Assembly: GCF_012933385.1 (NCBI RefSeq)
Contig: NZ_JABBPN010000012.1
Location: 62,001 to 126,000 of the forward strand
Source of the DNA: Paenibacillus lemnae
GTDB lineage: Bacteria; Bacillota; Bacilli; Paenibacillales; Paenibacillaceae
Direction of reading: 5' to 3'
Length of the DNA stretch: 64,000 bases
In this document: piece by piece, positions 46,624 through 64,000 of the stretch
Position numbering within the stretch: position 1 is the stretch's first letter
Layout of the letters: the number at the start of each line of letters is the position of its first letter
Notes under the pieces: generated by a model
Database searches by the model: none
What the model was told of the DNA's origin: nothing
Seen by the model: only the letters and a program-made list of their open reading frames with translations
Translations under genes and position numbers: made by a program

Positions 46624-46646
46624 GGTTTGATGAAAGGGGGATGCAA

Positions 46647-48050: not shown

Positions 48051-48073
48051 AATACGGGGAAGAAGGGATATAG

Positions 48074-49183
48074 ATGGGCACTGGTTTAACATCCGTATTA
48101 CAGGAGGGCGATCAATTATTTAACGGTTTTTATGGTTGGCTTTCCGGACAGTTTGACAGTGACAGCGGCGGTTTTTATTATGCAGCAAGTTCGCGTTCCG
48201 CTCAGCTTGGTCCGGATATTGAATCCACTTCCCAGGCATTAAATATAATGGAACGCTGCGGAGCGGCAGACATGATGGGGAATCACATGAAACAGCAGAT
48301 CATTTCCTTCTATCAATCCAGGCAGGATCCGAAGAGTGGGTACTTCTACGACCGGCACCCGGATATGCCTTGTGACGAGGTGATGGTCGGACGTGCCTTG
48401 GGTTACAGCCAGAACTCGCTCCGAAAACTGGGAGCATCTCCACTGCATCCTGTTCCGGATCATGAGGACCTCATGCCGGGGTACTGCCAGTCTCCGGCAA
48501 AGTATGCGGAGTGGCTCCGCTCTATAAGCTTAATCAACAGCTGGAGGGGGTGTGACCGGCTGTGCAACTCGGCACCCTACCTTGCCAGAATGCCGGTTGA
48601 GAAGAAGACACTGTTTCTTGACGAAGCATGGTCCTATTTTGATGAAATTCAGGATGTGGACAGCGGTTTATGGGGTGAAGGAAGTCCTTATGTCCGGATA
48701 TCCGGCACCTTTAAGCTGCTAACCTATTATAAGCGGTTTGGGAGGCCGCTGCCTGGTACGGCAGCAATTTATACGTCACTCCTTTATGCACTGAGAAATG
48801 AGAAGGCGGTGGATATGTGCTATATCCGAAATCCAATCAGTCTGCTCTCTGCGATGGAAGCAGCGATACCCCAAGCTGATTTGGAGGAGATCACTACAAT
48901 CACCCTGACGAACATGTCGAAACTGAAGAGGTCTGATGGAGGCTTTTCCCGGGAAATGAATCATTCTCCTGCCGCCCCGAACGTGGCTCAAGTGAAGCCG
49001 GGAGAATATTATCCAGACATGCCTGCTCCCGTTCCAATCGGTCAAGGCTTGGCAGAAGGAGATATGAACGCTGGAACCCAAGCCGTATTGATCCGCTATT
49101 CGCTTCGTAAGCTTGCAGAACTGCCTGATCAGGATTTGCCGCAGTCCAAGCTGCCGTTTACCGTTTTCCTGGATGAGAAATAA
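48074..49183 (+). CDS. Unrecognised protein in the GH43 operon, possibly an (alpha/alpha) barrel enzyme
   Basis: I do not recognise this 369-residue cytoplasmic protein. It has no signal peptide or membrane helix. The repeated pattern of short helices ending in aromatic-glycine motifs (FDSDSGGFYYAASS, DPKSGYFYDRHPDM, VDSGLWGEGSPYVR, KRSDGGFSREMNH) is typical of alpha/alpha toroid enzymes, such as glycoside hydrolases of the unsaturated glucuronyl or cellobiose-epimerase type or terpene-cyclase-like folds. Conserved-looking Asp residues lie in these loops. It lies 23 bases after GH43 and 16 bases before an MFS gene, so a role in metabolism of the imported sugar is likely. The function is unknown. 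Confidence 0.7.
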   Translation: MGTGLTSVLQEGDQLFNGFYGWLSGQFDSDSGGFYYAASSRSAQLGPDIESTSQALNIMERCGAADMMGNHMKQQIISFYQSRQDPKSGYFYDRHPDMPCDEVMVGRALGYSQNSLRKLGASPLHPVPDHEDLMPGYCQSPAKYAEWLRSISLINSWRGCDRLCNSAPYLARMPVEKKTLFLDEAWSYFDEIQDVDSGLWGEGSPYVRISGTFKLLTYYKRFGRPLPGTAAIYTSLLYALRNEKAVDMCYIRNPISLLSAMEAAIPQADLEEITTITLTNMSKLKRSDGGFSREMNHSPAAPNVAQVKPGEYYPDMPAPVPIGQGLAEGDMNAGTQAVLIRYSLRKLAELPDQDLPQSKLPFTVFLDEK

Positions 49184-49199
49184 AATCGGAAGCGGCAGC

Positions 49200-50441
49200 A
49201 TGAATTCTAGCAGTGTGAGGCTTTCCCGGGAAGCCTCCATCACCTTATCCAATCATGGTATCTACCAGTTCGGGAATGCACTTGCTGCCATCCTGGTGAA
49301 CCTTTACCTCTGGCGGCTGACTAATGATGTGTGGGTTAATGGCATGTACAACTTACTTACACTGGCTTCTGCTCCTGCAGCCACCCTGCTTGTCGGCAAG
49401 CTGGCCAAAGTCAAAGACCGATTATTGGTGTATCGGCTTGGCATCGTACTGACGGCCTTTTTTTATCTGCTGATTCTCGTGGCGGGTGAGATGTTAGTGA
49501 ACTATTATGTTGCCTTTGCGGTATTGAAAGGTGTATCGACCTCGTTTTACTGGCTGGGACACTTCACCATGATTCAGGATGTCAGTAATGAAGAGAACCG
49601 TCACCGGTATCTGGGCCTTAATCTGATCATCACGAATGCGGCGATGCTCGCAGGTCCAGCGGTCGCAGGCCTGCTTGTAGATATGTTTGGAGGACTCCGC
49701 GGTTATATGGCGGTGTATCTGCTATCTTTTGTCATGTTCGCTTATGCATCGATCAACAGCTGGAAGATGAGCAGGAAGCCGTCACCGCATAAAACTTACT
49801 ACATCAAATATTCATGGCAGATGAGCCGAAAGTATCCGGCCTTCGGACGCGCGCTGGCAGGATGGTTTGTATTTGGACTTCCGCAGGGCGTGCTGGCTTA
49901 TATTCCGGCAATTTTACTGTATGAGGCGGTTCCGAGTGAATCTTTCGTCAACTATATGAATGTGCTTTTTCTAGGTGTGACTATGGCGGCAGGCTTTATG
50001 TTAGCCAGGTGGGGAAGCAGCCGTCACAACTATCAGTATTTAAGAATGGCGGCAGTCGGTTTTATTGCAGGGACCATTCCGTTGTTTTTTGGAATCAGCC
50101 TTTGGCCGGTAGTCTTGTTTATGCTCTTGTATTCATGTGTCAAGCCGCTGCAGAACAACGCATATACGGCGTATTATTATGACCTCAGCGCACGTCTGCC
50201 GCTTGGAGAGCACTTTCGTGTGGAAGCGGTTGTACTCCGTGAGGTATGCACGAACGCAGGCCGCAGCGCAGGGGTAATCATTCTAATGTTTCTTTCGGCA
50301 GATATGCAGCAGGGAGCGCTTGCAGGAATGCTGATGTTTGCTGCGGTGTCTCAGCTGCTGATTGGCTGGCTGGCATCTCCGGCCTATCCGTCTTTTCGGT
50401 TACCGAGACACAGCAGTGACATAAACATGAGAAGAACATGA
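49200..50441 (+). CDS. Major facilitator superfamily transporter
   Basis: A 413-residue integral membrane protein with about twelve helices and a central polar loop (about 195-220). The first half carries ASAPAATLLVGKLAKVKDRLL and VSTSFYWLGHFTMIQDV; the pattern fits the MFS superfamily, without the sugar-symporter or drug-efflux signatures I could name. ATG 49200 is chosen: GGAAGCGG lies before it, and the upstream starts at 49113 or 49173 would overlap the previous gene. It is the last gene of the importer operon, 16 bases after the unknown gene. It could export a product or import a monomer; the direction cannot be told. Confidence 0.85.
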   Translation: MNSSSVRLSREASITLSNHGIYQFGNALAAILVNLYLWRLTNDVWVNGMYNLLTLASAPAATLLVGKLAKVKDRLLVYRLGIVLTAFFYLLILVAGEMLVNYYVAFAVLKGVSTSFYWLGHFTMIQDVSNEENRHRYLGLNLIITNAAMLAGPAVAGLLVDMFGGLRGYMAVYLLSFVMFAYASINSWKMSRKPSPHKTYYIKYSWQMSRKYPAFGRALAGWFVFGLPQGVLAYIPAILLYEAVPSESFVNYMNVLFLGVTMAAGFMLARWGSSRHNYQYLRMAAVGFIAGTIPLFFGISLWPVVLFMLLYSCVKPLQNNAYTAYYYDLSARLPLGEHFRVEAVVLREVCTNAGRSAGVIILMFLSADMQQGALAGMLMFAAVSQLLIGWLASPAYPSFRLPRHSSDINMRRT

Positions 50442-50757
50442 GAAGCTGACAATCAGAATGCACGTCGGGACTTACAGGCGTCTGATGCATGATTTTATGG
50501 GTTGACGATTTAACCGCGATCAGAGAAGATCTGATTATAAGATGAATTAAAGACAAACCCTTCTATAGCGGAGATGACAAGTGATTCTGGAGAAGCGTCA
50601 GCGTCCGCCTTTGTCTCCAAAATGCTACCTTAGATTATAATTCCAAGCATTTTGGAGGCAACAGCGGTCGTAAGAACACTTGCCATCGCAGCCACCAAGA
50701 ACGGTAACTCTTAACTTGATTCTATATAGAAGAAAAAGGAAGAGGTGAGCCATTCAA
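50442..50757. repeat. 316-base gene-free region with an interlocked inverted-repeat structure
   Basis: CTCCAAAATGC (50615-50625) pairs with GCATTTTGGAG (50647-50657), an 11-bp perfect match with a 21-base spacer. The same CTCC also fits an upstream GGAGA-ACAA arm (50570-50580) that pairs with TTGTCTCC (50611-50618), so two folds compete. No T-run follows either fold. GATTATAA occurs twice (about 50533 and 50633). The element may be a dispersed repeat; no gene is seen here. Confidence 0.45.
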
Positions 50758-51567
50758 ATGAAATTGTGGGAACAGCATGCGCCGGGATCCGAGTTCGAGG
50801 AACAGGATACCCACCAGCCCTACATAACCCCCTATGTAATCGACTCGGATCAAACGCACGCAGCCGTAATCGTCTTTCCTGGCGGCGGTTATGTGAATCG
50901 GGCCGAGCATGAGGGAGAACCTATTGCCCTTTGGCTTAACAGCCTGGGATTGTCTGCTTTTGTTGTGCATTACCGGGTCGCTCCGGTCAAACATCCGTAT
51001 CCATTGATGGACGGTATGCGTGCGGTAAGACAAGTGCGATACCGAGCAGCAGAGTGGAACATTGATCCGGAAAAAATCGGAGTTCTGGGATTCTCAGCCG
51101 GCGGCCATCTGGCTGCCACAGTCTGTACTCATGCTGAGCCTGGCTGGCCGGATCCTGATGACCCTGTCGAGCATGTAAGCTCCCGGCCTGATTTTGCCGT
51201 TCTGTGCTACCCGGTCATTTCATTCTCCCAGCACAGGCATGAAGGGTCCATGATCAGTTTGCTGGGAGAGCGTCCTTCAGAAGAAATGATCAAGCTGATG
51301 TCGGGCGAGCTGCAGGTAACATCAGAGACGCCGCCGACCTTTTTGTGGCATACGGCCGACGATGGAGCTGTACCGGTAGAGAACAGCTTGATGTATGCAA
51401 GCGCTCTTTCCGCAAAAGGAGTTCCATTTGAACTTCATGTATTTCCAGCTGGACGACACGGCTTAGGCCTGGCGCATGATGAGCCGCATGTCGCCCAGTG
51501 GACCCATCTATGTGCTGGATGGCTGCGTACCAGCGGGATTATCCATGGAGAAAATGGAACCGTATAG
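50758..51567 (+). CDS. Alpha/beta hydrolase, acetyl-xylan-esterase / carbohydrate esterase-like
   Basis: A cytoplasmic esterase of 269 residues. It has IVFPGGGYVNRAEHEGEP (HGG-type oxyanion region), the nucleophile elbow LGFSAGGHLAAT (Ser about 118), the acid Asp in WHTADDGAVPVEN, and the His in GRHGLGLAHDEP. The layout matches the acetyl-xylan or feruloyl esterase group often found beside hemicellulose genes (for example bifunctional acetyl/feruloyl esterases). AAGAGGTGAG before ATG 50758 is a strong ribosome site. It has its own terminator and probably its own promoter. Removal of acetyl groups from imported xylo-oligomers is a reasonable but unproven role. Confidence 0.85.
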   Translation: MKLWEQHAPGSEFEEQDTHQPYITPYVIDSDQTHAAVIVFPGGGYVNRAEHEGEPIALWLNSLGLSAFVVHYRVAPVKHPYPLMDGMRAVRQVRYRAAEWNIDPEKIGVLGFSAGGHLAATVCTHAEPGWPDPDDPVEHVSSRPDFAVLCYPVISFSQHRHEGSMISLLGERPSEEMIKLMSGELQVTSETPPTFLWHTADDGAVPVENSLMYASALSAKGVPFELHVFPAGRHGLGLAHDEPHVAQWTHLCAGWLRTSGIIHGENGTV

Positions 51568-51749: not shown

Positions 51750-53264
51750 GTGGTGAGCAGAATAACAAATCGATGGATTTCGACTTTTTTTGCAACCGCT
51801 TTCTTTATTTGTGCCAGCTGCAGTGCTCCAGAAGGGGTGACAATGGAAAGGAATCCGCCCCAAGCCTCGATAAGCATTGTCATATCAAGCCTTGGGATGA
51901 CTTTTCCGGCTGGTATGGATGAGAATGACAACCGCTATTTGAATTACATTAGGGAGCAGACGGGAATCGACATTCAGGTTACTACACCACCTGCCGAGGT
52001 GTACGATGAGAAGCTGGACGTCATTATGTCTTCCGGCAGCCTGCCGGATATGCTTCATGCCTATGAACCGGTATGGTTCGGCAATTATGCAAAACAGGGG
52101 GCCTTCATGCCCCTTGATGATCTGATTAACACCTATGGCCCCAATCTAAAGAAGAAAATACCGGATCGGATTTGGGATAGAGTCCGATATGGCGGGAAAA
52201 TTTATGCTGTCCCCAGCCTGAACGAAGTCAGCGGAATTGAGCTCATGTATGTCCGTAAGGACTGGCTCGACCGTCTTGAAATGAAGCCGCCGCAAACGCT
52301 CGAAGAGTACACGGAAGTCATCAGGGCGTTTACACGGCGGGATCCGGACAGGAACGGTGAAGATGATACGATTGGACTTCCCCTGACGGTCAATCTCGGA
52401 CGGTCTTCTCCTATATTCGGCGCATTCGGTACACAGCTGGATACCTGGTTTGATGTAGACGGCAGACTCGTGAACGGAAGCATTATGCCGCAGACCAAGC
52501 AGGCGCTGGGTTATTTGGCTGAATTGTATCGTGAGGGCCTTCTGGACCGGGAATTTCCGCTCAATCTGCAGAATAATTTATATGAAAAAATTGAAAGTGG
52601 AAGAGTCGGATTATTTTCCGCGACCTGGTACGATACACGCGGTCCTATTGCTGCGAGCAAATTGAAGGACCCGAAGGCCGAATGGATTGCGCTGGAGTAT
52701 CTTGCCGGACCACAAGGGCAGAAGGGAGTTTACGGAACCAATGAAATTCGCGGATATAATGTCATCCCAGCAGGTTCAGAGCATGCTGCAGATGTGATTC
52801 GTATGCTGGATTTTATTGTGAGCGATTATAGAAACCTCAAACTCGGTTTTGAGAATGAAATCTGGCGAATGGAGAATGGGGTGATGGTCACTGATTTTCA
52901 GCAGCATGATGAGCATCTCTACAGGGGGATGTATCAGTCTTTGGTGGATGTACCAGACCCGGAGCTGTTTAAGAATCGGCTGGATTCCCTGGGGGATTTT
53001 CATTTATATGACAATCTGGAACGCATACGGGAGCATGTGATGAAGGATGCATTTTACGGGATTCCTACTCCATCCATGAGCAAATATGATAAGAAGCTGG
53101 ATGAACTGCAGGGTGTGTTTACAAGCATTATTCTAGGAGTCGAGCCTTTGGATGCATTCGATCACTTTGTAGCCCAGTGGAAACAATACGGCGGTGATGA
53201 AATCACCAAGGAAGTCAATGCCTGGTATGCGGCTCAAAGGGATAAACCGGCGGAGGAATTCTAA
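51750..53264 (+). CDS. Solute-binding lipoprotein cotranscribed with a sensor kinase
   Basis: A surface lipoprotein of 504 residues that probably binds an oligosaccharide and reports it to the kinase encoded next. A signal peptide ends in a lipobox-like CASC (Cys about 25), less regular than usual. DPDRNGEDDT (about 200-210) is an EF-hand-like calcium loop as in the other binding proteins here. The two-lobe CUT1 binding fold is recognisable (ADVIRMLDFIVSDY, KIYAVPSLNEVSGIELMYVRKDW). GTG 51750 or 51753 fits AAGGGGAAGG; the GTG at 51744 is too close. The stop lies one base before the kinase ATG, and permeases are absent from this operon. Confidence 0.88.
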   Translation: MVSRITNRWISTFFATAFFICASCSAPEGVTMERNPPQASISIVISSLGMTFPAGMDENDNRYLNYIREQTGIDIQVTTPPAEVYDEKLDVIMSSGSLPDMLHAYEPVWFGNYAKQGAFMPLDDLINTYGPNLKKKIPDRIWDRVRYGGKIYAVPSLNEVSGIELMYVRKDWLDRLEMKPPQTLEEYTEVIRAFTRRDPDRNGEDDTIGLPLTVNLGRSSPIFGAFGTQLDTWFDVDGRLVNGSIMPQTKQALGYLAELYREGLLDREFPLNLQNNLYEKIESGRVGLFSATWYDTRGPIAASKLKDPKAEWIALEYLAGPQGQKGVYGTNEIRGYNVIPAGSEHAADVIRMLDFIVSDYRNLKLGFENEIWRMENGVMVTDFQQHDEHLYRGMYQSLVDVPDPELFKNRLDSLGDFHLYDNLERIREHVMKDAFYGIPTPSMSKYDKKLDELQGVFTSIILGVEPLDAFDHFVAQWKQYGGDEITKEVNAWYAAQRDKPAEEF

Positions 53265-53265
53265 G

Positions 53266-55113
53266 ATGAATAGAATTATACATCTTGTCCGTGAACGATT
53301 CTCCAGACATATTCAGACCCGGCTGACCGCTTATTTTCTGCTGATTCTGCTTCCGCTTGTCGTCATCAGCCTGTTTGCCGTGGAGCGGTCGCGGGGAATC
53401 TTGTATGACCAGGCTGTGGAAAGAACGGAAATGGCCCTAGCCTCGGCTATGAACCATTATGATCTGGCCCTGCAGAATGTAGAAGAAATCTCCACACTGA
53501 TTGCAGCCGATCCGACGCTAAATGAACTGCTTAATCAAAACAGTACCGGTTTTTCCCCAGCTTCCATCCTGGATTTCTCCTATGTTCTGCAGCAGCTGTC
53601 CAACTCCGTGTCGGTCAATCGATTTATTTCCCAAATCTCGGTGTATCATCAAGCTTCCCAAATGATGATCTCCACCCATTTTGGCGGACGGAAGCTGAAC
53701 TCGGAGCCGGAGCAGGCCTGGCTGGTGGAAGCAGCACGCAGGAACGGAACCGGCATTTCGTATGTTACAGCGACTTCCCCGGTCACAGAGATGCGGAGCT
53801 TCGGTAGATTGATCGGTACGGACAGTGTTTCCTTGATCCGGTCTATGGACCTGTATAACAGCGACCGGCAGTCGAATCTCCTTGTGGTGACCTATAATCA
53901 AAGCAAGCTGTTGAATATCCTGAAGACACTGCTGCCGTCAGACAACAGCAAGGTATTCCTGATGAATGACAAGGGAGAAATCATTGCCCAGCTCGGAGCT
54001 GGAAGACAACCAGGAATGAGCGTTTCACAGAATGCTCCAGCAGGGCAGATGATGGAGGTGACACAGACTTCCGGATATTCCGGATGGAGACTGTCGCTGG
54101 TACAGCCCAAAGACGAGCTGTACCTTGAAACGGACCAGCTTCGCTTGTTTACGTTTGGCATTATCGTACTCAGCATCTTATTGGCATTTATCATTTCATG
54201 GGTTGTATACAGCGGCATTGCATCCCCGGTGCTCAAGCTTTCTAGGGGGATCAAGCGCTTGAGCAGCGGAGATATGAGCGTACAGGTGGACAACCGCCGG
54301 AAAGATGAATTCGGATTCCTGATCCAGTCCTTTAACCGGATGGTGACCGTTCAGAAGCATCTCATTGAAGACCATTACGAACAGCAGCTCAGGCTGACCA
54401 CAACCGAGCTCAAGTTCCTGCAATCCCAGATCAATCCCCATTTTCTATACAATACCCTCGACTCCATCTACTGGTCGGCCAAAAACTACGAGGCGGAGGA
54501 GATCAGTGAAATGGTCATGAATCTTTCCCGTTTCTTTCGGCTCAGTCTCGATAAAGGAAGGCAGCTGTTTACCCTTGAGGAAAGCATTCAGCATCTGCAC
54601 TATTATCTCCGCATTCAGCAGCTCAGGTTTCTGGACAGCTTTGAAGTGGAGTATGACATCCATGAAGATACCCGGGCGCTTCACATTTTAAAGCTGCTTC
54701 TTCAGCCCCTGGTGGAAAACGCAATTCTCCATGGCATGGAAGGAAGGACAGAGGGGGGGCGCCTGGTCATTTCCAGCGAAATTATAGAGGAACTGCTTGT
54801 CATCAAGGTATGGGATAACGGACCAGGAATCGGGGAAGATCGTCTAAGCTATATCAAGAATGAGCTGGAACGGATGGAGAACCGCAGCCTCTCCTCCCTC
54901 TCTCTGGATCAGGAGCATGCCAATGATTTGTTTGGCCTGCGAAACGTCTACACGAGAATCCGCCTGTATTACGGGGAACGTGCAGGCCTTGAAATTTACA
55001 GTCATTCGGCTGAGGGGGCTGGCACCACGGCAGTCATCTCGCTTCCGCTTGAGGTCTGTTATCACGGAATTCAGCAAGAGCAGAAAGAGAACCGGGGAGG
55101 ATTGGTGTTATGA
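53266..55113 (+). CDS. YesM-type sensor histidine kinase
   Basis: A membrane sensor kinase of 615 residues. Membrane helix one (about 20-40), an extracellular sensor region (about 42-285, dCache-like), helix two (about 290-312), HAMP (about 312-365, ASPVLKLSRGIKRLSSGDM) and a HisKA_7TM-like/His_kinase domain with LQSQINPHFLYNTLDSI (phosphorylated His), LLQPLVENAILHG (N box) and DNGPGIG (G box). This is the B. subtilis YesM class. ATG 53266 directly follows the binding-protein stop, with GGAGG upstream; the longer start at 53194 would overlap the previous gene by 70 bases. The response regulator overlaps it by four bases. Confidence 0.95.
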   Translation: MNRIIHLVRERFSRHIQTRLTAYFLLILLPLVVISLFAVERSRGILYDQAVERTEMALASAMNHYDLALQNVEEISTLIAADPTLNELLNQNSTGFSPASILDFSYVLQQLSNSVSVNRFISQISVYHQASQMMISTHFGGRKLNSEPEQAWLVEAARRNGTGISYVTATSPVTEMRSFGRLIGTDSVSLIRSMDLYNSDRQSNLLVVTYNQSKLLNILKTLLPSDNSKVFLMNDKGEIIAQLGAGRQPGMSVSQNAPAGQMMEVTQTSGYSGWRLSLVQPKDELYLETDQLRLFTFGIIVLSILLAFIISWVVYSGIASPVLKLSRGIKRLSSGDMSVQVDNRRKDEFGFLIQSFNRMVTVQKHLIEDHYEQQLRLTTTELKFLQSQINPHFLYNTLDSIYWSAKNYEAEEISEMVMNLSRFFRLSLDKGRQLFTLEESIQHLHYYLRIQQLRFLDSFEVEYDIHEDTRALHILKLLLQPLVENAILHGMEGRTEGGRLVISSEIIEELLVIKVWDNGPGIGEDRLSYIKNELERMENRSLSSLSLDQEHANDLFGLRNVYTRIRLYYGERAGLEIYSHSAEGAGTTAVISLPLEVCYHGIQQEQKENRGGLVL

Positions 55114-56726
55114 AGCTGTTTATTGTGGAGGATGAACCACGTCTCAGAAATGCTATGGCCCATCATATTCCATGGGAGGATCATGGCATTGAGGTGGTAG
55201 GATTGGCTGCCAATGGGCTTGAGGCGCTGAAGATGACGGAGCGCAGGATGCCGGATCTCCTGCTGCTCGACATTCAGATGCCGGAGATGGATGGCCTGAC
55301 CTTGATCCGGAGGCTGAAGGAGCAGCAGAAGCAGAGGACGGCGTTCACCAAAATGATTATTTTAAGCGGTCATGATAATTTCGCATACGCACAGGAGGCC
55401 TTGAAGTACGGGGTATCCCGATATCTGCTGAAACCGGCGGGAGAGGAAGAGATTCTGCAGGCCGTTCTGGATGCAAGAAGCTGTTTAAGAGAAGAGCTGG
55501 AACGCTGGCGCAGGACGATGGAACTGGAGAAGAAATGGACGGAGCATATGCCGAGTCTGCAGACTCAATTTATGTGGGATTGGGTGGGTGGTCGGCTGAG
55601 TGAACGTGAGCTGCTGGACCGCGGACAGCAGCTGCAGCTCAGCTTTACGGAACAAGACAGCTTTGCAGCTGTAGTCATTGGTCTAGATCCATTACTTGAG
55701 GAAGAGTGCAGGTTCAGTAGAGATGACGCAGAGCTGCTGCAGTTCACCATTGGCTGTCTGGCCAAGGAACTGCTTCCGGCCGCCTCGGTATGGGTATGCA
55801 AGGCTCCCGAAGATGACCTGCTGCTGATTATGAAGGCTGAAGAAGGGCAGCGCGGCAAGGATTTTATGTTTCATGTCCAAACGGCGGCTGTCCGTCTGCT
55901 GTCCCATACGAGGGAAATTCTGAAAGTGACAGCGAGTGCCGGGATCTGCGGAGGACCCGGTCAACTGGATCAAATGCCCCGTCTGTATGCCGAGGCTTGC
56001 CAGGCGCTGCAGGAAAGAGTCATCTACGGACCGGATATTGCGATTCCTTATAAAGAAATGAGGATGAGGGAGCGTTCCGCGTGGACGGGTCATCATCGGC
56101 TGGAGCGGCTGCTGGAGACCGCCTTGGAAACTGGAAACGATAGTGGTGTGCGCGAGGCTGTGGATGGAATCTGGATGCAGATGATTGAGCCTGCCTCCAG
56201 CGCGCATCAGTTCCAGGAGTCCTTTCTGTACATTATCAGCTTGTTAACACGCATTGTGGTGAAGCAAGGCTGGAGTGTGTGCGAAGTCGCAGAAGAGGAA
56301 TGGGCCTATTTTCAAAATATACATCTGCTGCACACCCGCGACCAGGCCCGTACCTGGCTGGAGCGTACCGCGCTGCGGATTGCGGAATACAGCAGGAATC
56401 AGCGGAGTAACAGCAGCCATCAGCTGGTTTCACAGATGCAGGAGATGATATCAAAAGAAATACATCAGGATCTCACCCTGCATACCATTTCGGACCGGCT
56501 GTATGTCAACTCCTCCTATCTCAGCCGCTTGTTCAAGCAGGAGGCAGGAATGTCGTTTTCGTCCTATGTCACTGCTCAAAAAATGGAAAGAGCCAAAGCC
56601 GCTCTTCAACAGGGACATAAAGTGTATCATGCTGCCAGGATAACGGGTTACCGGGATGTCAGCTACTTTACCAAAGTGTTCCGTAAATACTGGGGGGTAA
56701 CTCCAGGCGGAATCAAGCCGCTTTAA
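55110..56726 (+). CDS. YesN-type response regulator with AraC output domain
   Basis: A DNA-binding response regulator of 538 residues. The receiver (about 1-120) has VEDEP acidic residues, the phosphorylated Asp in LLLLDIQMPEMDG (about 54), IILSGH and the Lys in YLLKPA. A central linker of about 290 residues follows; the C-terminal 100 residues hold the AraC HTH pair (LTLHTISDRLYVNSSYLSRLF and AARITGYRDVSYFTKVFRKYW). The start overlaps the kinase stop (ATGA), so translation is coupled. The terminator downstream closes the binding-protein/kinase/regulator operon. Its probable target is the following permease operon. Confidence 0.95.
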   Translation: MKLFIVEDEPRLRNAMAHHIPWEDHGIEVVGLAANGLEALKMTERRMPDLLLLDIQMPEMDGLTLIRRLKEQQKQRTAFTKMIILSGHDNFAYAQEALKYGVSRYLLKPAGEEEILQAVLDARSCLREELERWRRTMELEKKWTEHMPSLQTQFMWDWVGGRLSERELLDRGQQLQLSFTEQDSFAAVVIGLDPLLEEECRFSRDDAELLQFTIGCLAKELLPAASVWVCKAPEDDLLLIMKAEEGQRGKDFMFHVQTAAVRLLSHTREILKVTASAGICGGPGQLDQMPRLYAEACQALQERVIYGPDIAIPYKEMRMRERSAWTGHHRLERLLETALETGNDSGVREAVDGIWMQMIEPASSAHQFQESFLYIISLLTRIVVKQGWSVCEVAEEEWAYFQNIHLLHTRDQARTWLERTALRIAEYSRNQRSNSSHQLVSQMQEMISKEIHQDLTLHTISDRLYVNSSYLSRLFKQEAGMSFSSYVTAQKMERAKAALQQGHKVYHAARITGYRDVSYFTKVFRKYWGVTPGGIKPL

Positions 56727-56877: not shown

Positions 56878-57834
56878 ATGAAGCCGGAGAAGGATAAGCC
56901 GCAAGCTGGGACTGGCAAGAAGGCATACATGCCAACGCTGGCCAGAGACATACGTAAGGAATGGGATTTGTATCTGCTGCTGATCCCGGGGATTCTGTTC
57001 ATTTTGCTGTTCAAGTACACCCCCATGTACGGCATTATTATTGCGTTTAAAGATTTCAATATTTTCACAGGCTTCGCGGACAGTCCATGGGTAGGCTGGA
57101 AGCATTTCGAGAAGCTGTTCACTTCGCCCGATTTCTCCAGAGTGTTTCAAAATACAGTCATCATCAGTCTACTGAAAATTATCATCCTGTTTCCGCTGCC
57201 GATTGTCATTGCACTTATGCTGAATGAAATGAAAAATATGATGTTTAAACGGTCGGTTCAGACCGTCATTTACCTTCCTCACTTTCTGTCCTGGGTGATC
57301 GTGAGCGGTTTATTTATTGATCTGCTGTCTGTTAACGGCGGCCTGGTGAACAAATTGCTGAATTCTATGGGGATGGAATCGGTCGCCTTCTTCCTCGATA
57401 ACAGTGTCTTTCGAAGTGTGCTGGTGACCTCGGCGGGCTGGAAGGAGACGGGATGGAGCACCATTGTATACCTGGCTGCCTTTTCCATGATTGACCCGGC
57501 GCTTTATGAAGCAGCAAAAATCGACGGTGCGAGCAAGTGGAAGCAGCTGTGGCATATCACGCTACCTGGCATTGCGCCCATCATCATCCTGATGTTCATT
57601 CTCAGGCTGGGAAATATTTTGGAGGCCGGCACGGAGCAGATTCTCGTCATGTACAATCCCGTTGTCTACAAAGTATCGGATGTCATCGGCACTTATGTAT
57701 ACAGGCAGGGTCTTGGCAATCAGGATTACAGCTTTACCACAGCGGTAGGTCTATTCGAAGCCGTTATTTCGTTCACACTGGTCGTAGTTGGCAATTCACT
57801 CAGCAAAAAATACCTGCAGCGTGGAATCTGGTAA
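56878..57834 (+). CDS. ABC sugar permease, LplB type (second system)
   Basis: A membrane subunit of an oligosaccharide importer, 318 residues with six helices (first about 30-50, LYLLLIPGILFILLFKYTPMYG). The EAA loop is YEAAKIDGASKWKQLWHITLPG (core DGASKWKQLWHITLP). GGGGGGAGATCG is a strong ribosome site before ATG 56878. It starts a three-gene operon (LplB, LplC, binding protein) after the terminator of the sensor operon and shows clear similarity to the permease at 44758. No ATPase is encoded here. Confidence 0.95.
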   Translation: MKPEKDKPQAGTGKKAYMPTLARDIRKEWDLYLLLIPGILFILLFKYTPMYGIIIAFKDFNIFTGFADSPWVGWKHFEKLFTSPDFSRVFQNTVIISLLKIIILFPLPIVIALMLNEMKNMMFKRSVQTVIYLPHFLSWVIVSGLFIDLLSVNGGLVNKLLNSMGMESVAFFLDNSVFRSVLVTSAGWKETGWSTIVYLAAFSMIDPALYEAAKIDGASKWKQLWHITLPGIAPIIILMFILRLGNILEAGTEQILVMYNPVVYKVSDVIGTYVYRQGLGNQDYSFTTAVGLFEAVISFTLVVVGNSLSKKYLQRGIW

Positions 57835-57850
57835 GGAAGGAGATGTGTTT

Positions 57851-58783
57851 ATGCAGTTGATGAAGCAGGACCTCGATTTGAAAAAGATCACTGCCGGAGC
57901 AGGAGGAAATGCGATAAAATCCTCCCCCGGTGAGAAGCTGTTTGCTGCATTCAATTACGCTTTCTTTATCTTGATGGGCATGACGACGATGCTGCCGTTC
58001 ATCAATCTGCTGGCCAAGTCGTTAAGCAGTGAGCAGGCGGTAGTGTCGGGACGTGTAGGCTTGTTCCCGATCGGCATCCAGTTTGAAACGTATTATTATG
58101 TGCTCCAGGATTCCATGTTTCTTACTTCACTTCGAACCTCGGTGCTTCTAACCGTCATCGGCACGGCGCTTAGTCTGTTCATGACGACAATCACCGCTTA
58201 TCCGCTGTCCAAAACCCGGCTCCGGGGAAGGAAGTGGCTGCTGCTCATGTTCGTGTTCACGATGCTGTTCAGCGGAGGGCTGATTCCGACTTATCTGCTG
58301 ATGCAAAATCTGAACTTGGTCAATACGCTGCCGGTGCTCTTCCTGCCGGCTATGGTCAACGTGTTTAACATGCTGATTATAAAAAATTATTTTGAAGGGC
58401 TGCCGGAGTCGCTGGAGGAGTCAGCCAAGCTCGACGGCGCAGGAAATATCCGAATCCTAATCCATATTATCCTCCCACTGTCCCTGCCCGTGCTGGCAAC
58501 GATCGCTTTGTTCTTCGCCGTAGCCTTCTGGAATGATTACTTTGCTGCCATGATCTACATAACCAATCCGGAGCTCAAGCCGCTGCAGCTGTATCTCAAG
58601 GAATTGATCGTATCCTCGGGGGGAGAGTTTTTGAAAAACAATGTAGATGCCGCCATCAATATGACACCTCAGTCGATTCAGGCTTCTTCTATATTATTGG
58701 CCACAATCCCTATTCTGCTGGTCTACCCGTTTCTGCAAAAGTATTTCGTTAAAGGGGTGCTGGTCGGCTCCGTCAAGGGGTAA
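57851..58783 (+). CDS. ABC sugar permease, LplC type (second system)
   Basis: A membrane subunit of 310 residues with six helices. It shows FVFTMLFSGGLIPTYLLMQNL and the EAA loop EESAKLDGAGNIRILIHIILPLS (core DGAGNIRILIHIILPLS). ATG 57851 is used because AAGGAAGGAG lies about ten bases upstream; the longer start at 57788 would overlap the LplB gene. It is in tandem with the LplB-type gene, 16 bases after its stop. The binding protein follows after 88 bases. Confidence 0.94.
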   Translation: MQLMKQDLDLKKITAGAGGNAIKSSPGEKLFAAFNYAFFILMGMTTMLPFINLLAKSLSSEQAVVSGRVGLFPIGIQFETYYYVLQDSMFLTSLRTSVLLTVIGTALSLFMTTITAYPLSKTRLRGRKWLLLMFVFTMLFSGGLIPTYLLMQNLNLVNTLPVLFLPAMVNVFNMLIIKNYFEGLPESLEESAKLDGAGNIRILIHIILPLSLPVLATIALFFAVAFWNDYFAAMIYITNPELKPLQLYLKELIVSSGGEFLKNNVDAAINMTPQSIQASSILLATIPILLVYPFLQKYFVKGVLVGSVKG

Positions 58784-58871: not shown

Positions 58872-60383
58872 ATGGCAAAAAAATCAACCCTTCTCACCTT
58901 GCTGCTCGGCGTAAGCCTGGCACTGTCAGGATGCGGCGGAGGCGCAGAGACTCCCGCGTCACCGGGAGCGGATCCAGCTCCACAGCCTTCAGGTACACCA
59001 TCGGAGCCGAAAGAAGAGGCTAAGCCGGAAATCCGCATGATCATGCAGTACGGCCTGTTTGATCCGGCCAAAGAATTCACGAGCAAGTATATTACGGAGA
59101 AAACAGGGTATCCCGTTCAATATGAAATGCTGCCAGCGGAAAATGCCGATGAGAAGCTGAACCTGCTCGTGGCAAACAAGGAAAACTTTGATGTGATGAA
59201 GCTTAATGCGGCCCAGTTCTATAATTTGGCTACCTCAGGAGCTCTAGAACCAATGGATGAGCTGCTGGAAGCTCACGGCAATCATATTAATCAGGCGATC
59301 AAACCGGAATCATGGGAAAGCGCCACAATTGACGGCAAGAAATATGCTATCCCGGAGACCGGTTCAGGAGTAAGTATTGGGGAGGAACTGATCATCCGCC
59401 AGGATTGGCTGGATGAGCTGGGCTTAAGCGTCCCGACTAATGCTGACGAGCTTTACAATGTCCTGAAAACGATCAAGGAGAAGAAAAATGTAATTCCGCT
59501 GACGGGCAGCAAGGACTCTATTTATGGAGACATTGCAACCACGTTCGGAGTACTTACAGACTGGAAGGAAGTAGACGGCAAGCTGGTGCATAAAGCGGAG
59601 CAGCCGGAGATGAAAGAATTTCTTGGCTATATGAATAAGCTGTATGCAGAGGGCCTGCTGGATACCGAAATGCCGATCAATACGGCACAGAAGGCGATCG
59701 AGAAATTCGCCAGCGGCAAGGCAGCGGCATACAAGCTGGCCTGGTGGAATGCGGGAAGCACAATAGCTGCGCTGAATGAAAGCAATCCGGATGCAAAAGT
59801 GAGCGTCATTCCTTATCTGAAAGGTAAAGATGGCAAGGCGGTCGTTGGAGCCAATGCCAATACGACATGGTTTATTGCCATTCCGAAAGCTTCCAAGCAT
59901 AAAGAAGATGCGGTGAAGTTTCTGAATGCCAAGCTGGAGCCTGAAACCTTTAAAGGTCTGGCGATCGGTGAAGAGGGCGTGCATCACGAGGTGAAGGACG
60001 GCAAGTATTATCCGATCCTGCCGAAATTTAATGATGATCTGAACAATGCCAGTGCTTTTATGACAGGCGTGGATGAAGAGAAATATCCGATCTATTGGCA
60101 GGCACGTGTCCGCAAGGATCCGGTGCTGCAGAATTATTTCGAGACCTTCCAGAAGAATGCAGAAGGACTGGTCGTAGTCGATCCGATGTCTACGGCACCG
60201 CCGATCGATGCTGTATCGAGAAACACATTGAAGCTCAGAACCCTGCTGGATGATAATGCATTAAAATTTATTACCGGTTCCGAACCGCTGGAAAGTTACG
60301 ATACCTTCCTGGCACAGTGGCGGGCCGAGGGAGGAGAGGATATGGTCAAGGCAGCGAATGAGTGGTACCAGTCTGCCCAATAA
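58872..60383 (+). CDS. Solute-binding lipoprotein of the second sugar importer
   Basis: A surface lipoprotein of 503 residues with the lipobox LALSGC (Cys about 21) and a Pro-rich linker, then a CUT1-type binding fold (YAIPETGSGVSIGEELIIRQDW, ADELYNVLKTIKEKK). Unlike the other three binding proteins in this window, the EF-hand-like DPDxNG loop is absent at the matching position (KEKKNVIPLTG). This suggests a separate subgroup, probably with a different ligand. GGGAGG is a good ribosome site. It is the last gene of the LplB-LplC-binding-protein operon, followed by a terminator. Confidence 0.92.
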   Translation: MAKKSTLLTLLLGVSLALSGCGGGAETPASPGADPAPQPSGTPSEPKEEAKPEIRMIMQYGLFDPAKEFTSKYITEKTGYPVQYEMLPAENADEKLNLLVANKENFDVMKLNAAQFYNLATSGALEPMDELLEAHGNHINQAIKPESWESATIDGKKYAIPETGSGVSIGEELIIRQDWLDELGLSVPTNADELYNVLKTIKEKKNVIPLTGSKDSIYGDIATTFGVLTDWKEVDGKLVHKAEQPEMKEFLGYMNKLYAEGLLDTEMPINTAQKAIEKFASGKAAAYKLAWWNAGSTIAALNESNPDAKVSVIPYLKGKDGKAVVGANANTTWFIAIPKASKHKEDAVKFLNAKLEPETFKGLAIGEEGVHHEVKDGKYYPILPKFNDDLNNASAFMTGVDEEKYPIYWQARVRKDPVLQNYFETFQKNAEGLVVVDPMSTAPPIDAVSRNTLKLRTLLDDNALKFITGSEPLESYDTFLAQWRAEGGEDMVKAANEWYQSAQ

Positions 60384-60499: not shown

Positions 60500-63400
60500 A
60501 TGAACAAGATTTTGCGGAGGCGGCTGGCCTCCATGCTGAGTGCTGCTCTTATGATCTCATCTGCTGTATTCGGTTTTGGAACTTCAGGGTTTGCGGCTGA
60601 GCGCCCTGAGGGAGGAGAAATGGCATCTGCGGCGGACTCTTCGAGCCCTCATGATTCCTACATGCTGGTATCACAGCAGGATGGCTTCAGCCTGTCCTTT
60701 ACGGACATCAACCCTCCAGAAGAGGAACTGCAGCAAAAGGAAGGTTATCTGGCGGTATTTAGTCATGGCGCCAGGGTAACCGATGATGTCTATGATAACG
60801 ATGTGCTGGTTCGTGAGCAGGAAGTGGCCATTATCGTGGATTCGGGTGGTATGGTGAGCCAAAAGCACGGCCCTGCCGATGAGGAGGGAAGTGTCTGGAA
60901 TCCGGCTGCCACGGTTCCCATTCCGGAGGGCGGCTATATCGTCCTGGCTAAAGATGCAGCCTGGGACGATCAAGGATATCGGAAGCCGCTGCATGATCAT
61001 TTTGCTGCAGGAAGTACCGTTAAGCTAATGTATAACGGAACGGAAATCCTGCCTGGAGAGCTGCCGCCGGGGAACCCGAGCACAGAACCAGGGCCACCGC
61101 CGGATTCTGAGCCTGAGCCTCAGCCCGAGCCGGATCCCGAGCTGCCGCCTGAATTGATTTTGAACACGCCGCCGGATTCGGTCGTATACATCCCGCTGCT
61201 GGAGGTGTCCGGCTATGTTAACAATGTTACGGAGGATCAAGATATGCGAATTACAATCGATAATACAGAAGTGAATATTAGCGCCAGCGGCAGCTTCAGG
61301 CAGAACGTTTACCTCAACCCGGGTCTCAATACCGTTGTCGTTAAGCTGTGGGAAGGACAGAACGAGCTGGCCGTTGTGCAGTTGAATGCCGTATACGATG
61401 CTGAAGGAGCCGGAGCTGATTATATTGAAGTGGAGGCGGCTCCACTGGATATTACGATCGGCGTAGAAGGGCCCCGCAAGAAATTGGATGTCATCGATCA
61501 GGATGTGACGGGCATTTCTAACATCATTGCTCTCTTCTCACGAGATTACGGGGAAAGCCTCATTGTGCCTCAATTTAATGTAGCGGCAGCTGTCGATGCA
61601 AGCAGCCGGGTTACCCAGGTCGTGAATCCGTCTATTAATGGTAAGCCGCCTGTATGGACTGGACCGACTGAGCTCGAAATTCCTGAAGACGGTTATGTGC
61701 TGATGGCCCATGACAACAGCTATGCCGGCAATGATATCAAACGTTTTCTCGCGGAGAAATTTAAAGTCGGTGATTTCATCAAGCTGCGGAAAAATGGCGA
61801 GGTTGTTCCTGTGAGAGAGCTTCAAAGCGGGAATGGTGCGGTAGCAAGACTTAAGCTGGACAATGCGTCCATGTACACAGTGACAGAGCCCCAAACTGTG
61901 GTAACAGGACTCATCGAAAATATGGATGACCCTGCTGCCTATACGCTAAAGGTGAACGATGTGGAAGTTCTCTTTAATGAGGACGGAAGATTCAGCTATA
62001 CGCTCATGCTGCAGCCGGGAATCAACTATGGTGATGCCATCATACAAAAGCGGGGAGTGGAGCAGGACCGTCAGAGTCTGGCTGTCTTTTACCAGCAGGG
62101 GCTATCCTCCGGCAAAGACGTAATTCTGTGGGTAGACCAGGCGGCCAATGCCCGCAAATTCCAGAGCAGCGAGGATGTAAAGAATTTTCTGGATCAGGCT
62201 AAGGCAGCGGGAGTGACTTCCGTGATTCTGGATGTGAAGGGTGTGGAGGGGTTTGTTTCTTATAAGAAGAATGATCTGACCGGACGTCCATACGTCAGTG
62301 AAATCAAAGCACCTCAAAAAGCCGGCGCAAGCCCGGATCTGGATCTGCTGGAGGAGTTCATCACGCACGGTCATGCACTGGGGTTAAGCATACATGCCTC
62401 CATCAATGATTTTGCAGAAGGGTCTATCGCTCACCAGGAATTTGCGGTGCTGAATGACCACCTCGATTGGGAGGAACGGGTGTATTTTGCCGAGAATAAC
62501 GGGGAAATCAAACGTCTGCGTGAAAATGCGAAACAGGGCTTGGTCGCTTTCGTGAATCCAGCGAATGACGAGGTCAGGGATTATCAGCTCAAAACCTTTG
62601 AAGAGATTATTAAAAATTATGATGTGGACGGCGTCGTGCATGATCGGGGACGCTATGATAACGAAGGCGCTGATTTCAGTGAAGAAACACGTGTGAAGTT
62701 TGAACAGTTCCTGGCAGCAAGAGACAAGCAGCTGGTGAATTGGCCGGAGGTTGTGTTTTACTACGACCAATCTGTTCGCGTATACGGGCCTTTGATTCAG
62801 GATTGGTGGGAGTTCCGCTCAAAGACGATCCAGAGCTTTTTTGCCGAAGTAAAAGATCTGGTGGACGGCTATGAGACGGTCAAAGGTAGAAACATTCAGG
62901 TCTCTTCTTATGTAGGTTCATGGTATGAAACGTACTATTTAAACGGCGTGAACTGGGGTAGTAAGAACTTCCGCTTTGATCAGCGTCTGAATCTCCCGGA
63001 TGAATCCATATATACGCCCGAATATTACGAAACAGGATATATTGAATACCTGGACTTCCTGATGATCGGCGCTTATCAGACCACGAGCAGTGAAGTGAAG
63101 AAATATATTACGCTTGGCAATATTGTCACGAACGGAGAACTTCCGCTTTATGCGGGAATTGCTTTAAACAATGTCCAGACACCGGCCATGCAGCGCGAGG
63201 TGTTCCAGGCAGGCCTGAGCAGCACGAACGGGTTGATGCTGTTTGATGCATCCCAGGTTAACTGGCCGATTATTACCGCAGCCCTGCAGGATAAAGAGTG
63301 GGTGAAGGACTATCAGCTGGGCATGAGTCTGCCGGGCAAGCCGGAACAATTTATGGAAGGTGATTTCCACAATGTGAACCGGGTGGAGGGCAATATCAAT

Positions 63401-64000
63401 GTCATGACCGATTCATTCGGCTACTCCACGGGCAGCAACCGGTTTGGCGTTGAAGTGGTGGTGAATGCAGCAGGACAGGTAGAAGATGTCGTGAACCGGG
63501 ATCAGGCGATCCGCTGGAGCTGGGGAGCACCGGAGGAAAATAACAGCGTTATTCCTCAGGACGGGTTCGTTATTTCGGCGCTTGATCCTTCAGGAACAAG
63601 GACGAAAAGGCAGCAGGTTGCTAACGCTTATAACGATGGGGATCAGGTACGGGCATCTTTGCTGAGCGGACTTCTGGATGATGAAGGCAAGCAGGTTGCT
63701 GCTAACCGAGTGACCGTCGAAGGTCATGTGGAGGTTCTGGGTGCAGGAACGAATGTACAGGTTCGATTCAATGGACAGCCGGCACAGGTTCAGGCTGATG
63801 GTGATTTTGCAGGCGAAATCAAGCTATCGCCAGGAGCCAACAGCATTATGATCGATGTGTATGTGGATGAGATGAAAACAAACAGCAGGCTGATCGAAAT
63901 GACACGGACTACCGGAGACGGGGGAGGCGACCCGGGGCACGGTAATCCAGGCAACCCAGGCAACCCAGGGAATCCCGGCAATCCGGGTAACCCCGGCAAC
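60500..64000 (+). CDS. Secreted modular protein with a GHL10-like TIM-barrel core (3' truncated by window)
   Basis: Open reading frame continuous to the window edge: 1167 residues. A signal peptide (about 1-35, ending near GFAA) is followed by repeated modules: type A (about 78-187, 338-440, 967-1056; IPEGGYIVLA, IPEDGYVLMA and IPQDGFVISA) and type B, Ig/glucodextranase-like (about 225-301, 464-532, 1070-1135; a NPGLNT-, QPGINY- or SPGANS-type turn). Between the second and third pairs lies the core (about 538-940) with VILWVDQAANARKF, VTSVILDVKG, VAFVNPANDEVRDYQ and VDGVVHDRGRYDN, resembling the glycosyl-hydrolase-like 10 family (YngK/DigH type). A Gly-Asn-Pro repeat follows. AAAGGTGG lies ten bases before the ATG. 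The substrate is unknown; a cell-wall or hemicellulose role is plausible. Confidence 0.82.
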   Translation, partial: MNKILRRRLASMLSAALMISSAVFGFGTSGFAAERPEGGEMASAADSSSPHDSYMLVSQQDGFSLSFTDINPPEEELQQKEGYLAVFSHGARVTDDVYDNDVLVREQEVAIIVDSGGMVSQKHGPADEEGSVWNPAATVPIPEGGYIVLAKDAAWDDQGYRKPLHDHFAAGSTVKLMYNGTEILPGELPPGNPSTEPGPPPDSEPEPQPEPDPELPPELILNTPPDSVVYIPLLEVSGYVNNVTEDQDMRITIDNTEVNISASGSFRQNVYLNPGLNTVVVKLWEGQNELAVVQLNAVYDAEGAGADYIEVEAAPLDITIGVEGPRKKLDVIDQDVTGISNIIALFSRDYGESLIVPQFNVAAAVDASSRVTQVVNPSINGKPPVWTGPTELEIPEDGYVLMAHDNSYAGNDIKRFLAEKFKVGDFIKLRKNGEVVPVRELQSGNGAVARLKLDNASMYTVTEPQTVVTGLIENMDDPAAYTLKVNDVEVLFNEDGRFSYTLMLQPGINYGDAIIQKRGVEQDRQSLAVFYQQGLSSGKDVILWVDQAANARKFQSSEDVKNFLDQAKAAGVTSVILDVKGVEGFVSYKKNDLTGRPYVSEIKAPQKAGASPDLDLLEEFITHGHALGLSIHASINDFAEGSIAHQEFAVLNDHLDWEERVYFAENNGEIKRLRENAKQGLVAFVNPANDEVRDYQLKTFEEIIKNYDVDGVVHDRGRYDNEGADFSEETRVKFEQFLAARDKQLVNWPEVVFYYDQSVRVYGPLIQDWWEFRSKTIQSFFAEVKDLVDGYETVKGRNIQVSSYVGSWYETYYLNGVNWGSKNFRFDQRLNLPDESIYTPEYYETGYIEYLDFLMIGAYQTTSSEVKKYITLGNIVTNGELPLYAGIALNNVQTPAMQREVFQAGLSSTNGLMLFDASQVNWPIITAALQDKEWVKDYQLGMSLPGKPEQFMEGDFHNVNRVEGNINVMTDSFGYSTGSNRFGVEVVVNAAGQVEDVVNRDQAIRWSWGAPEENNSVIPQDGFVISALDPSGTRTKRQQVANAYNDGDQVRASLLSGLLDDEGKQVAANRVTVEGHVEVLGAGTNVQVRFNGQPAQVQADGDFAGEIKLSPGANSIMIDVYVDEMKTNSRLIEMTRTTGDGGGDPGHGNPGNPGNPGNPGNPGNPGN
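63941..64000 (+). repeat. Gly-Asn-Pro triplet repeat (9-base units) at the window edge
   Basis: Six complete nine-base units coding Gly-Asn-Pro, plus part of a seventh, run to the end of the window with silent third-base changes. It is probably a flexible linker to a further domain outside the window; slippage could vary its length. Confidence 0.85.

Follow-up and report, generated by a model that had tools for sequence, protein, structure and literature searches.

A modular, SLH-anchored protein of Paenibacillus lemnae with a GHL10-type core: a probable glycosidase linked to an upstream importer

We analysed a stretch of 64,000 nucleotides (hereafter 'the window') from the 4.6 Mb draft genome of Paenibacillus lemnae, corresponding to bases 62001-126000 of contig NZ_JABBPN010000012.1. 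The subject of this study is a gene that starts at window position 60500, on the forward strand, and encodes a large protein in which a GHL10-type TIM barrel is surrounded by repeated modules, designated 'A' and 'B'. The layout of the protein, the homologies among its modules and its gene neighbourhood were observed, and from them we infer its activity: it is probably a secreted glycosidase of a distinct GHL10 subfamily, anchored to the surface by SLH domains, which feeds a dedicated importer encoded directly upstream.

In the mechanism that we propose, the three SLH domains would hold the putative glycoside hydrolase on the cell wall, where its barrel would cut a complex glycan, with E640 and D715 as the candidate catalytic residues, while the A and B modules around the barrel would hold or position this glycan. 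Module A, present three times in this protein, would be a relative of the beta module found in front of the NAGPA catalytic core, a core that the protein itself lacks. The ATP-binding cassette (ABC) importer would then take up the products, the imported molecule presumably being one of them, and the adjacent sensor kinase and AraC-type regulator would control the system.

Three A-B module pairs surround the core

The open reading frame is unbroken from its start to the window edge (60500..64000, forward strand, as are all features below), and past the edge it reaches a stop at window-equivalent 65248. The complete gene (L002:501-5249) has a product of 1582 residues, which consists, in order, of a signal-like start, modules A1-B1-A2-B2, the GHL10-type TIM barrel, modules A3-B3, a region without Pfam match, and three SLH domains. 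Three A-B pairs, with a GHL10-like core between the second and the third, had been described in an original prediction made from the letters of the window. We confirm this layout, by shuffling tests and profile-profile comparison for the pairs and by Pfam, sequence and predicted-fold comparison for the core, and the residue ranges given for A and B agree with the module envelopes that we took from profiles of orthologues.

The signal-peptide-like N-terminus (about residues 1-32, 60500..60595) was recognised, like all signal peptides in this work, by a Kyte-Doolittle hydrophobicity window only. It is followed by A1 (residues 60-190, 60677..61069), by a Pro/Glu-rich linker that varies among orthologues (about residues 191-215, 61070..61144), and by B1 (residues 216-300, 61145..61399), A2 (residues 310-446, 61427..61837) and B2 (residues about 446-535, 61838..62104). 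The core, taken together with a DUF4985 region, extends over residues 538-945 (62111..63334), and A3 (residues 946-1056, 63335..63667), B3 (residues about 1055-1140, 63668..63919) and a Gly-Asn-Pro repeat linker (63926..64000) complete the part encoded within the window. Beyond the window edge lie the region without Pfam match (residues 1169-1392, about 225 residues, L002:4005-4676), which is poorly conserved among orthologues, and the SLH domains (residues 1395-1582).

Pfam placed GHL10 (PF02638) on residues 604-820 (32.5 bits, cut-off 27.9), DUF4985 on residues 838-920, under its cut-off, and Glucodextran_B (PF09136) on three stretches corresponding to B1, B2 and B3 (54.9 bits, cut-off 27), B3 being the best-scoring one. 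Module B is thus Ig/glucodextranase-B-like, as predicted; it resembles domain B of glucodextranase in these three stretches, whereas the catalytic domain is different. A scan of NCBIfam with the 1166 residues encoded inside the window found no family up to E 1. The 3' end of the gene, where such domains had been suggested, does encode three SLH domains by Pfam, and a pyruvyltransferase-family gene (PF04230) is present in the genome.

To assess homology among the copies, single-sequence alignment scores were each compared with those of 500 shuffles. A1-A2 scored 120 and A2-A3 scored 74 (shuffled, 29 ± 5 and 28 ± 5), with none of the 500 shuffles as high in either case; the A1-A3 score of 37 was reached by 38 of 500 shuffles and is not significant alone. 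B1-B2 and B1-B3 both scored 63 (0/500), and B2-B3 scored 42 (6/500). Nine A-B pairs used as controls scored 22 to 41, the two highest being matched by 14 and 15 of 500 shuffles. Profile-profile comparison over 11 to 13 orthologues gave 99.7% for A1-A2, 97.0% for A2-A3 and 95.9% for A1-A3, and 98.8%, 98.3% and 97.0% for B1-B2, B1-B3 and B2-B3, respectively, while four A-versus-B controls gave 0.1 to 3.0%. Finally, a profile made from A1 and A2 only had matches in 18 of 197 genomes searched, and in 10 of these a third match fell at the place of A3 (E 2e-8 to 2e-6); no third match was listed in the other 8. Of 24 A1 and A2 copies, 18 were included in one alignment, and of 13 A3 copies, 11 were included in another. 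On these sequence comparisons, the three A copies are homologous to each other, and so are the three B copies. A B-like identity for module A was ruled out, the A-B controls being negative. The fold of the A copies was compared for the predicted A2 and A3, both covered by an 831-residue model (predicted local distance difference test, pLDDT, 71.6): a common order of strands and helices was broadly found, with the exception of one strand and one helix.

The core is a GHL10-type barrel with a candidate active site of its own

The nearest solved relative of the core by sequence is Cwp19 of Clostridioides difficile (PF02638, 5OQ2; E 1.2e-5), and the predicted core fold is also nearest Cwp19 (Z 26.7 over 292 residues, root-mean-square deviation (rmsd) 3.1), followed by PgaB and GH42. 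The core is therefore predicted to adopt a Cwp19-like TIM-barrel fold, within the same Pfam family. Cwp19 is likewise described as a surface protein with wall-binding repeats (PMC6016235, excerpted text), but these are of the CWB2 type, in place of the A and B modules and SLH domains found here, and the present protein is importer-linked. When the whole 831-residue model was submitted to Foldseek, the first seven rows were GH66 dextranases with rmsd >22; we read these as multi-domain alignments and rejected the likeness. One orthologue (L055) has a GH66 match in Pfam that lies under the cut-off (17.9 bits versus 23.7).

Within the aligned stretch, the active-site residues of Cwp19 named in PMC5765458 are largely replaced. 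Gln77 corresponds to D578, Trp127 to S634 (the 12 other cores have A here), Arg132 to A639, Asp196 to R716 (R in 13 of 13 cores), and Tyr197 to G717 (a position occupied by G, S, T or A); among the named residues within the aligned stretch, only the buried Asp195 is kept, as D715. Trp36, Ser250, Gln295, Tyr297, Gly328, Phe367 and Ser368 of Cwp19 fall outside this stretch. Asp196 has been suggested as a catalytic or stabilising residue (PMC5765458, excerpted text). By contrast, 46 positions are invariant in all of the 20 cores compared, four of which are stand-alone and the others part of modular proteins. These positions include E640, in an F-A/S-E-G motif (62417..62419), D715, R716 and R718, which form a DRxR motif (62642..62653), and D852 and D916. 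We take the core to represent a subfamily of GHL10 whose active site would be its own, with E640 and D715 as candidate catalytic residues.

Two other explanations bear on this result. The first is a peptidoglycan enzyme of the Cwp19/DigH kind, that is, a wall-bound lytic transglycosylase or muramidase for turnover, with an importer that recovers wall fragments. The location of the protein on the wall through its SLH domains would suit it, and its closest solved relative by both sequence and fold is reported to be a peptidoglycan lytic transglycosylase (PMC6016235, excerpted text). In Escherichia coli, DigH is described as degrading denuded peptidoglycan glycans (PMC12288456, excerpted text). 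On the other hand, of the aligned Cwp19 active-site residues only Asp195 is retained, and we regard this explanation as unlikely. We presume that DigH itself belongs to GHL10, a term absent from the paper on DigH. The fold is not confined to peptidoglycan, since hydrolysis of starch has been reported for a GHL10 enzyme from Deinococcus (PMC9967864, excerpted text).

The second is a non-enzymatic scaffold or glycan-capture protein, in which a barrel without catalysis would bind glycan for the importer. The modest Pfam scores of the core, the loss of the aligned Cwp19 residues and the six modules without known catalysis around the barrel are compatible with such a role. It is nevertheless hard to reconcile with the invariance of E640, D715, D852 and D916 in 20 of 20 cores, stand-alone ones included, and with a core identity of 65 to 87% to the window's core across the orthologues compared; we consider it improbable.

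Module A resembles a beta module associated with NAGPA

The original prediction left module A unnamed. In Pfam, no consistent match was obtained at E up to 10 when 11 and 18 copies were scanned singly, so that module A could not be accepted as a Pfam family. We did find a relationship to the beta module that precedes the NAGPA core, best seen for A3.

When an A3 profile was compared with 299 class-level genomes, matches were found in nine: the own genome, two orthologues, and six non-orthologous proteins, encoded by open frames of about 750-850 residues (E 1.5e-4 to 8.6e-4). Four of the six were submitted to Pfam, and all proved to be NAGPA phosphodiester glycosidases, three of them with SLH domains; the remaining two closely resemble two of these four in sequence. 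Where coordinates were compared, the A3-matching stretch precedes the PF09992 match and overlaps its start. In hhalign against the NAGPA segment, A3 reached 97.1% and the pooled A copies 95.0%, whereas neither of two B controls reached 1%. The structure predicted for A3 (pLDDT 75, predicted template modelling score 0.71) gave, as its top three Foldseek rows, two chains of 6ozd and one of 5h3k, all with probability 1.00, the next row being at 0.44. VIA gave Z 7.4 for 5h3k (352-487) and 6.5 for 6ozd (243-414), followed by 4.3. By sequence, these two structures match a NAGPA protein at chain positions 448-586 and 446-521, mostly further along; the module border in them is approximate because the two tools number residues differently. 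A relationship of module A to the beta module in front of the NAGPA core is thus indicated: for A3 it is firm by profile, the predicted fold pointing the same way with less certainty, and A1 and A2 would reach this module only through their homology to A3. The difference from NAGPA is that the catalytic core is missing (no PF09992 match in the whole protein in Pfam, E 0.1), and that module A occurs in several copies, each with a B module as its partner.

A second protein combines such modules with a GHL10 domain. P0002 (L104:4232-7567, genome G010) has 1111 residues, a signal-like start, a GHL10 domain (E 3e-29) and a Cadherin-like C-terminus, and its gene lies directly before that of a stand-alone core. 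Four places before its GHL10 domain are picked out alike by the profiles of A1, A2, A3 and the NAGPA segment; several of the single matches are very weak (A3 scores under 0 bits against the first copy), and it is the positions that agree. P0002 therefore resembles the protein of the window in its A modules N-terminal to a GHL10 domain, its signal-like start, and its location near an importer and a stand-alone core. It differs in having four A copies without B, a Cadherin-like end, and V and Y at the positions of E640 and R716. A literature search found no paper naming GHL10 together with phosphodiester glycosidase.

The gene is linked to an importer

Directly upstream of the gene, and on the same strand, lie two importer permeases, PermA (56878..57834) and PermB (57848..58783), and an extracellular solute-binding lipoprotein (58872..60383), preceded by a sensor kinase (53194..55113) and an AraC-type response regulator (55110..56726). 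The nearest solved relatives of the lipoprotein are listed as extracellular solute-binding protein family 1 and AlgQ1/AlgQ2; the four other genes were named from their form. The own locus and 11 of the 14 others compared have PermA, PermB and the binding protein in this order, directly upstream on the same strand; at one of them, L037, the PermA frame is broken in two. Downstream, 11 of these 14 loci carry a PF12831-type oxidoreductase dependent on flavin adenine dinucleotide (FAD), assigned to this family on the basis of the copies at L090 and L106. This gene is absent from the own locus, and a 66% copy is present elsewhere in the own genome. Its identity could not be taken from solved structures, which gave weak matches only.

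A wider survey of named genomes kept 86 relatives, and the best 80 of them corresponded to 78 distinct loci. As these were found through two core peptide patterns, the sample favours close relatives: it is mostly Paenibacillus, with some Bacillaceae and one metagenome-assembled genome of Lachnospiraceae. It shares genomes with the 14-locus survey (for example P. faecalis, G030), and the two are not independent. A 'window-type importer' was defined by the best BLAST matches to PermA, PermB and the binding protein (E <=1e-20, any strand). An importer was present within 10 kb at 60 of the 78 loci (53 window-type, 7 of a second type), PermA-PermB-binding protein stood immediately upstream at 26, and a relative of the FAD gene was held by 54. 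Among the 32 SLH forms, 22 had an importer, in 19 cases immediately upstream. The corresponding figures were 7 and 6 for the eight loci without a signal-like start; an importer was within 10 kb for 30 of the 36 secreted forms without SLH, and in one of the two loci cut by contig ends. The functional link to the adjacent importer, suggested in the original prediction from the window, is thus well supported.

Several observations weigh against the interpretation as a whole. For the importer, 18 of 78 loci lack a complete one within 10 kb, including 10 of the 32 SLH-type loci (some contigs are short), and in the secreted forms without SLH it is never immediately upstream (0/36) and often on the other strand. 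For the core, the mapping of active-site residues depends on one sequence alignment of 27.7 bits, and the nearest relative is the peptidoglycan enzyme discussed above, which, in the excerpted text of PMC5765458, showed no significant change with 11 other carbohydrates. For module A, the high hhalign score against NAGPA is limited to A3 (A1 63.0%, A2 16.2%), and the NAGPA segments had been chosen by the A3 profile, six of them being in the alignment behind the A3 model. None of the A copies scanned singly in Pfam has a NAGPA match (E 10), the E-values of the three Foldseek rows are just 0.013, 0.019 and 0.020, and Z in VIA stays under 8.

Signal-less forms and the history of the layout

The layouts at the 78 loci could be sorted into A2-B2-core-A3-B3 (37 loci), the full SLH form (28), A2-B2-core (4), and partial or variant forms (9). 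Two short proteins, L090 and L091 (657 and 747 residues), are of the A2-B2-core type, with clear ribosome-binding sites and neither a hydrophobic N-terminus nor SLH domains, and their genes lie directly behind the same importer. L090 has no GHL10 match at E 0.001, and its DUF4985 match passes the cut-off. Among the 78 loci, three of the four A-B-core ones (L186-L188) are also directly behind this importer. The eight signal-less loci are a mixed group, consisting of these three with L191, of L144 and L146, and of two with an unclear start (L124, L153); L041 and L042 may be 5'-truncated, and L144 and L146, from the same genomes, likewise. If the short forms are truly intracellular, the substrate of the barrel should be the cargo of the importer. 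Proteins such as L090 and L091 should have no way to the wall, contrary to what the peptidoglycan explanation requires, and the signal-less forms behind the importer are the strongest hint against a role at the wall only.

Trees were then considered. In an unrooted tree of A modules (16 of the 78 loci), A1 nests inside A2 (support 98/97), and a 97/99 branch separates A1 and A2 from A3, which lies with the modules of NAGPA and P0002, the P0002 rows being long branches. With A1 inside A2 and A3 apart, A1 looks like a late duplicate of A2, arisen beside a core that was already flanked. It had been proposed that an A-B unit was duplicated and the catalytic domain inserted afterwards; the commonest layout (A-B-core-A-B), the smallest one (A-B-core) and the A tree do not support this. 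A tree of B modules (15 of 78 loci, short alignment) places B1 nearer B3 than B2. It disagrees with the A tree and was not retained as support for a duplication of A1-B1 as one unit.

Sister operons and a possible amino-sugar substrate

In three genomes (G010, G030, G604), a stand-alone core is found in a 'sister operon' with an importer, the FAD oxidoreductase, an RpiR-type regulator, NanE (PF04131) and a ROK kinase. A DUF4127-like gene is present in those of G010 and G604, and none was seen in G030; the G604 operon also holds a GH84 gene. In G157, a same-strand run comprises a modular protein, RpiR, importer, DUF4127, FAD oxidoreductase, stand-alone core, NanE, ROK and GH20. A literature search on DUF4127 found no paper. 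Four Bacillaceae loci (L165, L180, L183, L184) join a modular protein with NanE, RpiR, FAD oxidoreductase, a window-type importer and a stand-alone core. Their binding protein is just 27 to 33% identical to that of the window, and the ligand may accordingly differ. L055 and L115, which overlap on one contig, hold a long same-strand run of modular GHL10, RpiR, importer, DUF4127, FAD oxidoreductase and stand-alone core, continued by NanE, ROK, esterase, GH20 and GDSL-type genes.

The presence of a ManNAc-6-phosphate epimerase in some Bacillaceae operons is a hint at an amino-sugar glycan. A possible refinement of the glycosidase interpretation, not exclusive of it, is a substrate with N-acetylmannosamine (ManNAc) as a constituent; NanE and the ROK kinase encoded in the sister operons would channel this sugar into metabolism. 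NanE and ROK in the sister operons of four genomes (G030, G604, G010, G157) and the bridging Bacillaceae loci argue for it. In addition, none of these four operons contains a PF00701 (sialate-lyase-family) gene, although all four genomes have such genes elsewhere; this makes sialic acid less likely, and we discarded it as substrate. Against the refinement, NanE lies within 10 kb at only 5 of 78 loci and at none of the 32 SLH-type loci, which also lack relatives of ROK and RpiR within that distance. The binding protein of the bridging loci is distant, as noted above. In the own genome, neither the NanE gene nor the DUF4127 gene is accompanied by a GHL10 core or an FAD gene; next to NanE lies an RpiR-type regulator (29%), and the surroundings of both genes include further sugar permeases. 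L090 has instead, downstream of and convergent to the short-form gene, FAD oxidoreductase, GH35 and GH29 genes on one strand (L090:9355-14448). We consider a ManNAc-containing substrate tentative, with somewhat more against it than for it. The GH29/GH35 pair was rejected as a substrate hint, since it concerns this one locus, relatives being found at 0 of 78 loci. The RpiR regulators and NanE of the sister operons would fit a peptidoglycan enzyme that recovers amino sugars as well, although their absence, and that of ROK, around the SLH-type loci counts against it.

Pyruvylated ManNAc in wall polymers is described as the anchoring epitope of SLH trimers (PMC10435577; on SLH-polymer binding, PMC6081394; excerpted texts). 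This leads to a more specific reading, in which the SLH-docked enzyme would work on its own anchoring polymer class: it would cut secondary wall polymer with pyruvylated ManNAc, either that of its own cell or that of a neighbour, ManNAc-containing pieces would be recovered through the importer and its relatives, and module A would be a glycan-binding module common to GHL10 proteins and phosphodiester glycosidases. We give this reading a low probability.

Other genes in the neighbourhood

The next gene downstream (L002:5654-7486, window-equivalent 65653-67485) encodes a protein of 610 residues made of two similar halves, which begin like TWVWQTELIRDG and TYIWRAEEVIHN; in Pfam it has only a weak ParB_C match (E 0.03). 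Further upstream, positions 46641-51567 of the window hold genes for a GH43 enzyme, a 369-residue protein without Pfam match and a BD-FAE-type esterase, which come after a second importer of similar form (about 43.1-46.6 kb). At L041:10982-14645, an FAD oxidoreductase lies between GFO/IDH/MocA and xylose-isomerase-like genes on one strand, a group that we take to resemble oxidative glycoside pathways. Paenibacillus sp. NAIST15-1 has an orthologue of the protein studied here (L129); identity with CmoA of that strain was rejected, CmoA being described as a vWFA/TIG protein (PMC5072692, excerpted text).

Implications

A repeated module without Pfam match can now be related to part of another enzyme family. 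The comparison also outlines a GHL10 subfamily that would have its own invariant motif and a dedicated importer, and that includes surface-anchored, secreted and apparently intracellular forms. A single binding protein and a single isolated barrel would suffice for a direct test of its substrate. The subfamily may provide a candidate enzyme family for amino-sugar wall polymers, and, if the reading based on pyruvylated ManNAc were true, it would represent a route by which the very polymer used to anchor surface proteins is recycled or foraged.

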